This document shows, in pieces, positions 50,196 to 54,629 of a stretch of DNA of 64,000 bases. Positions within the stretch are counted from its first letter, which is position 1, and each line of letters starts with the position of its first letter. The position numbers were made by a program, and so were the translations under genes. A model generated the notes under the pieces. That model was not told the origin of the DNA, did not search any database, and saw nothing but the letters and a program-made list of their open reading frames with translations. Where the stretch lies: NCBI RefSeq assembly GCF_003670115.1, contig NZ_QQTY01000002.1, forward strand, positions 1,116,001 to 1,180,000, written 5' to 3'. This stretch comes from Natronorubrum halophilum. GTDB taxonomy: Archaea > Halobacteriota > Halobacteria > Halobacteriales > Natrialbaceae.

Positions 50196-50969
50196 TCACT
50201 GCTTTTCGGGGCGTTCCGTCGCCCGGCGGAGCAATCCGAGAAGTGCGTTCGCCTCGCCCATGGTCAGATCCGCCCGGCCGTACACGCGGCGGAGCATTCG
50301 CATCGTTTTGTCGCGTTTCTCTTCGGGATGGTTGAGTTCCTCGAGTAAGTCCGCCCACTGGTCGTACACTCGATCGACGGTCGGTTTGGGGGCTCGGACG
50401 CGCTCTAGGTCCGGGTGTTGCGTTTCCTCGTCCGCGAGGGTGAGAGATTGCAGTTCGTAGAGCGTGATGGTCGCGGCCTGCCCGAGGTTGAGCACGGGGT
50501 ACTCGGCGTGGGCCGGAATCGAACAGATCTCGTCGATCCGAGCGAGTTCCTCGTTGGTGAGCCCGACGCGTTCGCGCCCGAAGACGAGCGCGGTGGGTCC
50601 GTCGACGGTCCGCAGCCGATCCGCGAGCTCCGCCGGCGTGGAGAACGGAAACCGAACGTGACTGCGGTCGTCCTCGTTGGTCACCGCCGTACAGCCGATC
50701 GTGTGGTAGCTCTCGACGATGTGATCGAACGTCGTCTCGGTCGCGTTCGGGAGGATGTCCTCTCGAGCGTGCCCTGCGTAGCCGTACGCCTCGCCGTCGG
50801 GATCGAGTTCCGGCGGGTCGACAAGCAGGAGGTCCTCGAATCCGAAGTTCTTCATCGCGCGGGCGATCGTGCCGACGTTACCCGGCGACTGGGCGTCGAC
50901 GACGGCGACCGCCGGCGGTGTCCGTGAACGTCCCCTCGAGCGGTCGGTTTCAGACGACTCGGTATTCAT
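50196..50969 (-). CDS. SPOUT tRNA/rRNA 2'-O-methyltransferase, TrmJ-like
   Basis: The 257-aa SpoU/TrmH-fold methyltransferase has motif 1 VDAQSPGNVGTIARAMKNFGF, motif 2 ALVFGRERVGLTNEEL and motif 3 VLNLGQAATITLYEL, the deep-knot SAM site. A C-terminal helical extension (~165-257) is shared with archaeal TrmJ, which methylates the ribose at position 32 of tRNA. Target not proven. Start ATG at 50969 is preferred; the longer frame to 51083 is less protein-like. It is transcribed away from the origin. Confidence 0.85.
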   Translation of the reverse strand: MNTESSETDRSRGRSRTPPAVAVVDAQSPGNVGTIARAMKNFGFEDLLLVDPPELDPDGEAYGYAGHAREDILPNATETTFDHIVESYHTIGCTAVTNEDDRSHVRFPFSTPAELADRLRTVDGPTALVFGRERVGLTNEELARIDEICSIPAHAEYPVLNLGQAATITLYELQSLTLADEETQHPDLERVRAPKPTVDRVYDQWADLLEELNHPEEKRDKTMRMLRRVYGRADLTMGEANALLGLLRRATERPEKQ

Positions 50970-51238
50970 CGGATGATACTCGATATCGGCTCGAGGAGCC
51001 GGGTATCCGTTTCGGTTCCGTTCGTGAGCCTGCGAGTGTCTCCATGAGTGTTCGCTGACGTGGAATCGACGGTGATCATACACCGATTAGCTGGCGGGCG
51101 GTCAAAAGATATCTGTTCGATTCGAGTCGGCAGTCCCGGTTAGCAGTGTTTGGAACGGACGCCACTCTCGATTCGTAACTTCCGGATCGTCCCCGATAGC
51201 TGAAGTCGGACGTTCCACCGATATAATCGTCTACACAA

Positions 51239-51306
51239 CTAGTCTAGAAATCCGTTCTAGAAACAACTAGACTATACTAGACTACTAGACTAGATTCTTC
51301 GTCTAG
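51239..51306. repeat. CTAG-dense repeat tract in the origin
   Basis: Eight CTAG tetramers occur within 68 bases. ACTAGACT is repeated three times (51266, 51276, 51284). The tract is AT-rich and partly self-complementary. It is a candidate DNA-unwinding element. Confidence 0.7.
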
Positions 51307-51477
51307 ATTATCAGCGGTAGCCGATAGGTAGCGGCCTACACCACTGGTTGGTAGCGGGGCTGAGCACCGTCGTGAACTGGCTCTGATCTTTCGTTCGAAC
51401 CCTCTCCAATCGATTCGACAGGAACTGTACGGCAATCACGGAAGGGGCGAGTACTGATGAAACGGGTCTGGTGTTGG

Positions 51478-51506
51478 GGGGACACACCCCCCTCGCGTTT
51501 GTAACG
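51478..51506 (-). repeat. origin recognition box 1
   Basis: On the plus strand this reads GGGGACACACCCCCCTCGCG then TTTGTAACG. It is the near-perfect inverted partner of the box at 51627-51657, 120 bases away. Confidence 0.75.
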
Positions 51507-51534
51507 CAGTTTAGGTGTGGGGGTCTTCACGTGG

Positions 51535-51559
51535 AACACACCACCTTCGCGGATGTAAC
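51535..51559 (-). repeat. origin recognition box 2
   Basis: CACACCACCTTCGCGGATG then TAAC has the same orientation as box 1 and the same GTTACAT-type core on the minus strand, but the G-string is shorter. Confidence 0.6.
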
Positions 51560-51626
51560 ATCTGGCTCTTATCGTCCATCTCGACACGGATCCCGGAATG
51601 ATCGAACACCCACCCCACCCATTCGG

Positions 51627-51657
51627 CGTTACAAACGCGAGGGGGGTGTGTGTCCCC
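51627..51657 (+). repeat. origin recognition box 3
   Basis: CGTTACAAACGCGAGGGGGG followed by TGTGTGTCCCC. It is the inverted counterpart of box 1, with nearly all bases matching. Confidence 0.75.
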
Positions 51658-51810
51658 ACTAGCAACTGCCGTAGTGTCCGAGAAAGGGCTTTATCCGCCG
51701 ATATCGGCAACTTCGGTAGAACACGATCTACTGTACCGCCACCGAACGGGTTTCAGAGATCACCCGGCACTGTCACCGGTGGTGGCACCTAACCGGAGAC
51801 TGACACCGCC

Positions 51811-51838
51811 GTTACATCCGCGAGGGGGGCGTGGGTGC
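51811..51838 (+). repeat. origin recognition box 4
   Basis: GTTACATCCGCGAGGGGGGC followed by GTGGGTGC. Same orientation as box 3, with a C-C change in the core and the G-string intact. Confidence 0.7.
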
Positions 51839-51958
51839 TTCACACAGTTGAATTGTCGGGGGATGAGTTCCTGTCCCGAGTTGGTGCTCTCGAGTCGAGT
51901 TATCGTCGAACACCGTTCGAAATCACTGCTAGCAATCGTCATGTGCCTCGCGCCGCCT

Positions 51959-52101: not shown

Positions 52102-53340
52102 ATGTCCGCCAACGACGATCGTGATCCACTCTTTCGGTACGACGATCCGGTCTTTGCCGACGAGCGCCTGCTCGAGATCACACATCTTCCCGGCCCGGAC
52201 CGGATCGTCGGACGCGACGAGCAAATGCAACGGGTTGCGGACGCCCTGAATCCCGCGATTTTCGGGAGCGAGCCGAACCACCTGTTCATCTTCGGCAAGA
52301 CCGGAACCGGCAAGTCGCTGATCTCCCGATCGATCACCCAGCGGGTGATCTCGGAGGCCCAGCGCGACGACATCACGGTGAAGTACGCGTTCATCGACTG
52401 CGGGGAGCAAAACACCGAGGCGTCGATCGTCAAGACGATCGCACAGATCGTCAACGAGTCGAACAAGAGCGGCGTCTCCGTCCCCGATCGCGGCCTCGGG
52501 ACGGGCGACTACTACAAACGGCTGTGGCAGTCGATCGACCACTGCACCGACGTCACGATCGTCATCTTGGACGAGATCGACATGCTCGAGGACGACGAGG
52601 TCCTCCGGAAACTCTCCCGCGCCGGCGAGAACCGACGTATCTCGGACTCGAGCATCGGAATCATCGGCATCTCGAACAAGATCGACTTTCCGGACCACCT
52701 CTCCGAACGCGTAAAATCGAGTCTGTCCCGGGACGAACTCGTCTTCTCGCCCTACGACGCCAACCAGCTCGTCGAGATCCTCGAGAAACGACGCGACGCG
52801 TTCCACGACGGCGTGCTCTCCGACGACGTTATTCCGCTGACCGCCGCGCTCGCGGCCCAGGAACACGGGGACGCGCGCAAGGCGATCGACATCCTCCGCA
52901 ACGCCGGCCGCATCGCGAAGAAACAGGACGCGACTCGAGTCACCGCGGATCACGTCCGTGACGCCAAAGAGAAGACCGAAGCCGATCGATTCAACGAGTT
53001 GATCGAGGGCTCGCCACAGCAGGCCAAGGCGATCCTCTACTCGCTGACGCTGCTGACCGAGAACAGTTCGGAAAAGGAGTTCCCGACGAAGATCATCTAC
53101 AACCAGTACAAGGAAATCGCTCGCCAGCTCGATTTCGACGTCCTCTCGGAGCGCCGAGTGCAGGAGATCCTCCAGGAACAGAACTTCCTCAACGTGATCC
53201 AGTCCGAGCGCGAGGGTCGCGGGCGCGGACGCGGTGCCCACGCCAAACACCGACTGCTCGAGAACCCCTCGATCGTCCGGAAAGTCCTGCTTCGGGACTC
53301 CCGGCTGGCCGTCCTTGAAGAAGACGCTAAAAACGAGTAG
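52102..53340 (+). CDS. cdc6: origin initiator protein Orc1/Cdc6
   Basis: The 412-aa AAA+ ATPase binds origin boxes and loads the replicative helicase. Walker A is FGKTGTGKSL, Walker B ILDEIDML, sensor 1 GISNKID and sensor 2 GDARKAIDILRNAG. The C-terminal winged helix spans ~330-412. The N-terminal part DDPVFADERLLEITHLPGPDRIVGRDEQ is family-typical. Located directly beside clustered boxes with matching orientation, so this is likely the cognate initiator. Haloarchaea have several paralogues; which one this is cannot be told. Confidence 0.96.
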   Translation: MSANDDRDPLFRYDDPVFADERLLEITHLPGPDRIVGRDEQMQRVADALNPAIFGSEPNHLFIFGKTGTGKSLISRSITQRVISEAQRDDITVKYAFIDCGEQNTEASIVKTIAQIVNESNKSGVSVPDRGLGTGDYYKRLWQSIDHCTDVTIVILDEIDMLEDDEVLRKLSRAGENRRISDSSIGIIGISNKIDFPDHLSERVKSSLSRDELVFSPYDANQLVEILEKRRDAFHDGVLSDDVIPLTAALAAQEHGDARKAIDILRNAGRIAKKQDATRVTADHVRDAKEKTEADRFNELIEGSPQQAKAILYSLTLLTENSSEKEFPTKIIYNQYKEIARQLDFDVLSERRVQEILQEQNFLNVIQSEREGRGRGRGAHAKHRLLENPSIVRKVLLRDSRLAVLEEDAKNE

Positions 53341-53435: not shown

Positions 53436-54629
53436 ATGAACGCCGTCGACGCGGCGGGGTTGGGAATCGGCGACGAGTACCCGCCCCGGATCATGGGCGT
53501 GTTGAACGTCAGCGAGGAGTCCCCGTACGATCCGAGCGTCTTCGACGACGCCGGCGACGCAGCCCGGTACGTCGACGAGGAACTGATCGGTGAGGGTGCC
53601 GACATCGTGGATATCGGGCTCGAGTCGGCGAACAAACGCTTCGATGTGCTCACGGCCGACCAGGAACTCGATCGGCTCCACACCGCGCTCGAGACGATCG
53701 AGCGCGTCTCCGGGGACGCGATCTTTTCGATCGAAACCCGGTACGCCGAAGTGGCAGACGAGGCGCTCTCGCGGGGCTTCGACATGGTCAACGATATCTC
53801 CGGCTTCGCCGATCCGGAGATGCCGACCGTCTGTGCGGACCACGACGTTGCCGTCGTCAAGATGGCGAGCCCGCCGGATCTCGAGCGCCCGGGTGCGGTC
53901 GAGGAAACCGACTGGGCCGGCCGAAAGTCGCCCGAGTGGGCGTCTCAGGCCGACTACGTCGATCAGGTCTTCGAAGCGCTGAAACAGAACGGACTGACCG
54001 ACAAGACGATCATCGACCCGGCCTTCGGCGGCTGGAGCGAGGCCCAGACGCTCGAGGGCGACCGCGAAACGTTCCGTCGTCTTCGAGAGTTTCGCGCGCT
54101 CGGACGGCCCGTGCTCGTCTCGATCAATCGAAAGAACTTCCTCGGCGATATCGCCGGTCGCGAGACGGAGGATCGGCTCCCGGTCAGCCTCGCGGCCACC
54201 TCGATGGCCGTCGAACGCGGTGCGCACGTGATTCGAACCCACGACGTCGCCGAAACCCGCGACGCGGCCCTGGTTGGGGACGCGTTTACCGACCGCGCTC
54301 GCGTCGTCACCGACGAGTTCTCGGTGTCCCGGCTGGACGTTCGCTCGAGCCGTGAACTCCGGGCGCACCTCGAGGAACGCGGTATCGATCCCAAGGGTGC
54401 CGACGACTGGTGTTCGCTGGCGATCAAGGTCGACGGACTCGACGGAGACGATCGGGTTCGGGTGGCGTCGATCGCGTCCGAGTACGACACGGCCGTGAAA
54501 CACGTGAACACGGGACAACTCCTCCTCGTCGGATCGACAGCCGCGATTTCAGACGTGTCAGCCCATCTTCGGGACGCAAACGGCGATCTGAGGGGGCTCG
54601 GAGAATCGTTCGCGGAAATGCTTGAGTAA
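53436..54629 (+). CDS. folP: dihydropteroate synthase-like protein
   Basis: The 397-aa protein has the DHPS barrel signatures RIMGVLNVSEESPYD and GADIVDIGLES, an MVNDISGFADPEM segment, and FRRLREFRALGRPVLVSINRKNFLG. It condenses a pterin pyrophosphate with an aminobenzoate-type acceptor in folate or related pterin synthesis. It is longer than bacterial FolP by ~100 residues at the C-terminus. The next gene encodes the pterin pyrophosphokinase MptE, so two consecutive steps sit side by side. Confidence 0.88.
   Translation: MNAVDAAGLGIGDEYPPRIMGVLNVSEESPYDPSVFDDAGDAARYVDEELIGEGADIVDIGLESANKRFDVLTADQELDRLHTALETIERVSGDAIFSIETRYAEVADEALSRGFDMVNDISGFADPEMPTVCADHDVAVVKMASPPDLERPGAVEETDWAGRKSPEWASQADYVDQVFEALKQNGLTDKTIIDPAFGGWSEAQTLEGDRETFRRLREFRALGRPVLVSINRKNFLGDIAGRETEDRLPVSLAATSMAVERGAHVIRTHDVAETRDAALVGDAFTDRARVVTDEFSVSRLDVRSSRELRAHLEERGIDPKGADDWCSLAIKVDGLDGDDRVRVASIASEYDTAVKHVNTGQLLLVGSTAAISDVSAHLRDANGDLRGLGESFAEMLE

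Follow-up and report, generated by a model that had tools for sequence, protein, structure and literature searches.

A tract of eight CTAG tetramers at positions 51239..51306 (no strand) is a real, conserved element of a replication origin linked to an orc1/cdc6 gene in Natronorubrum halophilum. Positions are those of the window, the whole 64-kb stretch of DNA that was analysed. With modest confidence, we favour the reading that the tract is a methyl-mark array, whose sites would be the targets of a CTAG methyltransferase on the probable unwinding flank of the origin; we infer its role from genome comparison. The cluster is kept in relatives, which suggests that the origins may be chemically marked. 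The first-pass annotation had described an array of a rare tetramer in AT-rich DNA inside the origin, naming CTAG as a methylation target, and this description holds: the tetramer is depleted, the origin is orc1/cdc6-linked and the array lies in its AT-richest DNA.

Structure of the origin

The initiator gene of the orc1/cdc6 family next to the origin (52102..53340, + strand) encodes 412 amino acids, scores 412 bits against TIGR02928 and carries the Cdc6_lid and Cdc6_C domains. Upstream of it, a repeat search revealed a long inverted repeat, the arms of which are 84% complementary. The left arm (51475..51523, - strand) holds a G-string ORB with its core at 51487-51505, supported by the conserved spacing, and the right arm (51610..51658, + strand) holds an ORB with its core at 51628-51646. 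A second, weaker ORB (51537..51559, - strand; core 51541-51559) is separated from the first by 54 bp in most orthologues where it occurs, and a further copy (51807..51836, + strand; core 51811-51829) was recognized by the repeat search and its ORB core. Inverted G-string ORBs beside an orc1/cdc6 gene place this locus among the haloarchaeal origins adjacent to such genes. The ORB spacing is nearly fixed in relatives, where the minus-strand box is often followed by a weaker box about 54 bp on, and the plus-strand ORB usually lies 140-145 bp from the first (minus-strand) box.

The eight sites begin at 51239, 51244, 51257, 51267, 51277, 51285, 51290 and 51303, each as first annotated, and the reported repetition of ACTAGACT at steps of 10 and 8 bases is present in the sequence. 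Most sites are flanked by A or T, and the GC content of the tract is close to the lowest in the intergenic region. Its placement at the left flank of the origin boxes in AT-rich DNA was also correct, as the tract has 34% GC and 180 bp separate its right end from the leftmost ORB. Methyl sites are interleaved with initiator boxes at the oriC of E. coli, an arrangement that is not found here. Wherever a Natrialbaceae locus has three or more CTAG in the cluster, the array lies outside the ORBs, on the outer side. Two more CTAG stand isolated in the origin region: a ninth at 51659..51662 (no strand), adjoining the right ORB arm outside the tight array, and a tenth at 51929..51932 (no strand).

On the far side of the array is an ORF of the SpoU RNA methylase family (50196..51083, - strand; PF00588); these are the outer limits of the ORF, and the true start may be inside. 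A gene for a pterin-binding enzyme (53436-54629; PF00809) follows orc1 downstream and keeps this side in the majority of orthologous loci.

Haloarchaeal origins with G-string ORBs have been described (PMC3528665, PMC3936714), in which, as here, G-rich ORBs in inverted orientation and an AT-rich element accompany orc1/cdc6. They differ in that the AT-rich element here lies outside the inverted ORB pair. The word CTAG does not occur in the main-text portions of these two papers.

CTAG is depleted outside the array

The rarity of CTAG, which the first-pass annotation had assumed for haloarchaea in general, was confirmed for this genome. In a sample of 20 spread 20-kb stretches (400 kb) from five contigs, CTAG occurs 146 times (0.365/kb), and its observed/expected ratio of 0.106 is the lowest of the 256 tetramers. 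The annotation had asked for the density in 70-bp windows, and the maximum in the sample is two CTAG, against eight in the tract. It had also been prepared to give up its reading if CTAG were equally frequent elsewhere in the genome, which, at the density of the sample, it is not. The 64-kb window contains 26 CTAG against 94 expected from dinucleotide shuffles, and the 18 copies outside the tract amount to 0.28/kb.

Conservation at orthologous origins

With the initiator protein as query, 72 loci were obtained from named genomes, of which 49 were taken as Natrialbaceae orthologues and eight outside the family were counted apart; L084, whose upstream DNA covers 261 bp, was excluded, as were the paralogues and distant matches L089-L102. 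CTAG was counted in the 800-bp stretch from -1200 to -400 of orc1. At least three CTAG within 70 bp are present in 44 of the 49 orthologues, at least four in 40 and at least five in 30. The five loci without three CTAG in 70 bp of this stretch are L053, L057, L068, L070 and L073, and the array of L057 is located farther out. Among the eight loci outside Natrialbaceae, one (L081) reaches three. Absence of the tract from orthologous origins, which had been named as an observation that would count against the array, is contradicted by its retention at 44 of 49 loci, and its enrichment goes beyond chance (0 of 2000 shuffles).

Over the 49 loci, CTAG reaches 7.45/kb in the 800-bp origin regions versus 0.27/kb in the remainder, where it is the rarest tetramer. 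When tetramers were ranked in the pooled whole 800-bp regions, CTAG (observed/expected 2.0) did not come first, and TCGA (3.9) led the ranking. This ranking misses CTAG because the array fills a small part of each region.

A candidate CTAG methyltransferase

The genome encodes a 357-residue protein (L009) of the N6_N4_Mtase family and MthZI type, in which the SPPY catalytic motif precedes an FxGxG-type motif. It is 46% identical over 98% of its length to the methyltransferase of pFZ1, which we take to be the plasmid carrying the MthZI CTAG system. The pFZ1 gene adjoins that of an MjaI-family restriction enzyme and is paired with it, whereas no MjaI-like restriction enzyme was found in this genome with a query that finds one in 3 of 145 genomes. 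By homology, L009 is predicted to be a solitary CTAG (m4C) methyltransferase. A second, partial N6_N4 match (L010) is also present in the genome.

L009 has the motif order described for the type II beta class, and its closest known counterparts are the CTAG methyltransferases of the MthZI type, HVO_0794 / Zim (PMC5867850, PMC6471742, PMC6606915). MthZI is a plasmid-encoded CTAG system, according to a title cited in PMC6471742. Among the species of this survey, Natrinema pallidum has m4C at CTAG according to SMRT data (PMC12160562), and the modification was also measured in Haloarcula marismortui and Haloferax mediterranei (PMC6606915).

Of 391 genomes in the order, 348 have the enzyme. Among the 43 enzyme-less genomes, 23 of which were derived by subtraction from the genome list of a three-CTAG pattern search, 41 belong to one family (f3) and include all sampled members of the genera g50 and g60. 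The looser three-CTAG pattern itself, run over the 391 genomes, was too unspecific to be used alone.

A second array design at oriC1

Searching for three CTAG with gaps up to 20, we found four tight clusters in the 4.67-Mb genome, three of which are upstream of orc1/cdc6 genes; arrays are present at 3 of the 12 orc1-like genes examined. Besides the array of the window, one such cluster on contig C3 (L006) has six CTAG between copies of an ORB-like repeat, and the other, on contig C4 (L008), lies between two ORB-like elements. The gene of the latter is taken for the conserved oriC1 type. The fourth tight cluster (L007:5118-5158; G000:C4:316117) locates in a short intergenic stretch with no orc1/cdc6 match near it. 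A search of plasmid DNA gave three partial matches.

The oriC1 array of the family f1, which is Natrialbaceae as judged from the orthologues of the window's initiator, has its own design. Its CTAG sites share a common register of 0, 31, 41, 63, 83 and often 132, with the spacings 31-10-22-20-(49) repeated across genera. Stacking 19 genomes without gaps revealed that the sites read TCTAGTAAC, an extended directional motif, and that the non-anchor CTAG columns have a mean identity of 86% versus 65% in the other columns. With one array taken from each genus (20 arrays), all spacings but the last fall close to multiples of 10.5 bp (z = 10.9), and this z is an upper bound because the register is one inherited state. 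The phasing may be one event seen many times. For the oriC1 arrays of families f2, f4 and f9, 29 distinct arrays gave z = 4.0 at 10 bp, and the 18 arrays that remain with one per genus gave p = 0.34; phasing in these families was dropped as not significant.

Beside the oriC1 CTAG array, we notice a landmark that reads approximately TRCGGATNNTGTTT and leads into an A/T box (L008:5010-5360); it is recognizable in genomes from f1 to f11. A strict search expression for it found the motif in few f3 genomes, and the strictness of the expression is the cause. The oriC1-type Orc1 of 564 residues (L022:256-1950, - strand) has an acidic, low-complexity insertion of about 110 residues between Walker A and Walker B.

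Distribution of the enzyme and of oriC1 arrays

We scored an oriC1 array as three CTAG in 100 bp and dropped three rows with less than 900 bp upstream (two f3 genomes without the enzyme and one f9 genome with it). The sample took in 37 of the 61 enzyme-bearing f3 genomes and a further hand-picked set of 80 across families; no oriC1 match was obtained for G297. Of the 117 enzyme-bearing genomes, 65 have an array, compared with 0 of the 40 that lack the enzyme. The contrast comes mostly from one family, f3, to which 38 of these 40 belong, and is strongly confounded by family. Among enzyme-bearing genomes, the array is present at oriC1 in 28/31 of f1, 21/22 of f2, 5/6 of f4, 3/7 of f9, 1/4 of f5, 1/2 of f7, 1/3 of f10, 1/3 of f11, 0/1 of f6, 0/1 of f8 and 4/37 of f3. 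The enzyme-less genomes comprise f3 (0/38), f2 (0/1) and f4 (0/1).

Inside f3, the comparison of 4/37 with 0/38 gives p = 0.054. The two other enzyme-less cases are cleaner than the f3 contrast: CTAG is absent from oriC1 in the single f2 genome that lacks the enzyme (1 of 116) and occurs there once in the f4 genome, each genome being only about 90% complete. Two f1 genomes with the enzyme, G016 and G070, have no CTAG in the 1.5 kb upstream of the oriC1 gene. Together with the 4/37 of f3 and the 1/4 of f5, they make the enzyme clearly insufficient for an oriC1 array. The enzyme is common in f3 without an oriC1 array; therefore, the arrays are no by-product of the enzyme, which probably has reasons to persist besides the arrays.

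Possible role and alternative explanations

Three readings had been offered at first, namely a protein-binding array, a phased unwinding element and a methylation-marked site. The last of these is best supported, by the solitary enzyme, by the lack of oriC1 arrays in all 40 enzyme-less genomes and by a constraint that covers four bases only; the phased form of the unwinding element is rejected at this origin. In the proposed mechanism, the array would be a target-site cluster for the solitary m4C CTAG methyltransferase, in the AT-rich flank on the ORB side away from orc1. Its sites would carry N4-methylcytosine, as in the relatives named above, and the flank would be hemimethylated just after replication. 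The methylation state could then signal whether the origin has fired, or could modulate its unwinding, by analogy with Dam/SeqA at the oriC of E. coli. We know of no SeqA-like reader for m4C CTAG.

As an unlikely alternative, a sequence-specific protein such as an Orc1/Cdc6 paralogue, a nucleoid protein or a helicase-loading factor might bind the A/T-flanked CTAG, with methylation being incidental. The f1 oriC1 register, close to multiples of 10.5 bp and built of the directional TCTAGTAAC, is what a protein lattice requires, and an origin motif of Sulfolobus is bound by a nucleoid protein (PMC12141716). Against this idea, the f1 register is inherited, the arrays outside f1 show no significant phasing when each genus is counted once, enzyme-less genomes have no oriC1 array, and four base pairs make a small site for proteins that are not methyltransferases.

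The origin of the window itself is unphased, with a motif of A/T-flanked CTAG only. The steps of 10 and 8 bases had been read as close to one helical turn, and the pair distances of 41 distinct orthologous arrays do not bear this out (z = -1.0 at 10.5 bp). With about one array per genus (16 arrays), no helical period was found either (z = -0.4; p = 0.95 over all periods). A helically phased unwinding or binding array was rejected here on this spacing test, a period of about 10.5 bp being seen only at f1 oriC1. Among 272 array sites of this origin type, A or T is adjacent in 84% on either side, and there is no longer motif. In six groups of close relatives (17 loci), 121 of 171 CTAG sites are retained versus 440 of 1283 other 4-mers of the tract, a comparison in which the alignment can favour CTAG-to-CTAG matching. 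The rest of the tract turns over faster than its flanks in 16 of the 16 pairs listed. Because the flanks are A/T only, CTAG is retained and no helical period exists, site identity and a sizeable number of sites are kept while the spacing is free. Evolution has preserved a number of 4-bp CTAG sites, and neither their spacing nor a longer motif. Such a constraint would suit a methyl mark, and would suit a rigid protein lattice less.

That the tract is a plain DNA unwinding element, in which CTAG with its central TA step melts or kinks easily, seems to us quite improbable. The tract is near the regional GC minimum, with a median of 2.9% of 70-bp windows lower in GC over 45 arrays. Yet the lowest-GC windows of the origins, picked blind to CTAG, contain 5.35 CTAG per 150 bp and 1.12 of the next anagram, so that CTAG is favoured over each of its 23 anagrams, some of which also have a TA step. 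AT-rich DNA elsewhere is not enriched, as 70 similarly AT-rich control windows outside origins have 0.24 CTAG. Plain AT-richness was also rejected as the cause of the array: dinucleotide shuffles of the tract (51228-51312, 2000 trials) gave a mean of 1.8 CTAG, and AT-richness fails to explain the array because they top out at six versus the eight observed. Moreover, enzyme-less genomes have an oriC1 without CTAG arrays, and plain unwinding gives no reason for melting by means of the rarest tetramer of the genome.

It is very doubtful that the array serves orc1 or the divergent SpoU methylase gene as a promoter or operator. It does sit in their shared intergenic region, but about 160-220 bp from the outermost start of the SpoU ORF and about 800 bp from orc1. 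A promoter of the SpoU gene was rejected, as the array is retained with orc1 and the ORBs where that gene was not found (L074-L076) or is displaced (L059, L088). The array evolves with the origin, and not with the neighboring SpoU gene. Chance, local composition or a relic of CTAG-targeting insertion sequences, elements that are mentioned in PMC6471742, can hardly be believed, because the array is conserved at 44 of 49 orthologous loci and no shuffle of the tract reaches eight CTAG.

Returning to the methyl-mark array, we speculate on a wider scheme that is tentative and, on balance, doubtful. Haloarchaea of at least three families might run a counterpart of Dam/SeqA, in which m4C CTAG arrays in the AT-rich part of several origins per cell report the replication status. 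It would come in two designs, a free-spaced counting array, exemplified by the origin described here, and, at oriC1, a register-locked CTAGTAA lattice on one face of the DNA, read by a putative protein.

Relation to known systems

CTAG clusters upstream of orc1/cdc6 in Haloarchaea, correlated with an orphan enzyme, were reported by Blow et al. 2016 (PLoS Genet, PMC4752239), who proposed a replication role for them. The phenomenon itself is therefore already published. The present array is of the same kind, being a non-coding, conserved CTAG cluster upstream of orc1/cdc6 in a genome with a methyltransferase that is solitary by homology. The two descriptions agree in the motif, the place, the occurrence at several origins per genome and the proposed role (PMC4752239), and may agree in the enzyme association, which at oriC1 is strongly confounded by family in our sample; they differ in that CTAG density was plotted there in 500-bp windows, whereas the anatomy is resolved here at the level of bases. 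In titles and abstract openings of the open-access literature, we found no description of the base-level layout of CTAG origin arrays. New here are the anatomy relative to the ORBs and the GC minimum, the CTAG-only constraint and the unphased array at this origin, as well as the register-locked oriC1 type and the limits of the enzyme link, since many genomes with the enzyme have no oriC1 array. The anatomy distinguishes two designs of array that look alike in density plots, and shows which bases matter for testing.

Dam/SeqA at the oriC of E. coli resembles the present system in its orphan methyltransferase, site-dense origin and AT-rich DNA (PMC5867850, PMC6471742). The two differ in the mark, m6A in GATC versus m4C in CTAG, and in that the array here is outside the initiator boxes and CTAG is rare in the rest of the genome.

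The role of the widespread CTAG methylation of haloarchaea is stated as unknown in PMC6606915 and PMC6471742. If the arrays are the reason why the enzyme is kept, this would mean epigenetic control of archaeal replication. The unmethylated CTAG sites of Haloferax lucertense are concentrated in DNA of low GC content (PMC11001535); therefore, the AT-rich array might be under-methylated. In Haloferax volcanii, deletion of the enzyme in a multi-gene deletion strain caused no growth defect (PMC5867850), and oriC2 is the only origin described as CTAG-dense (Ouellette et al. 2018, PMC5867850).
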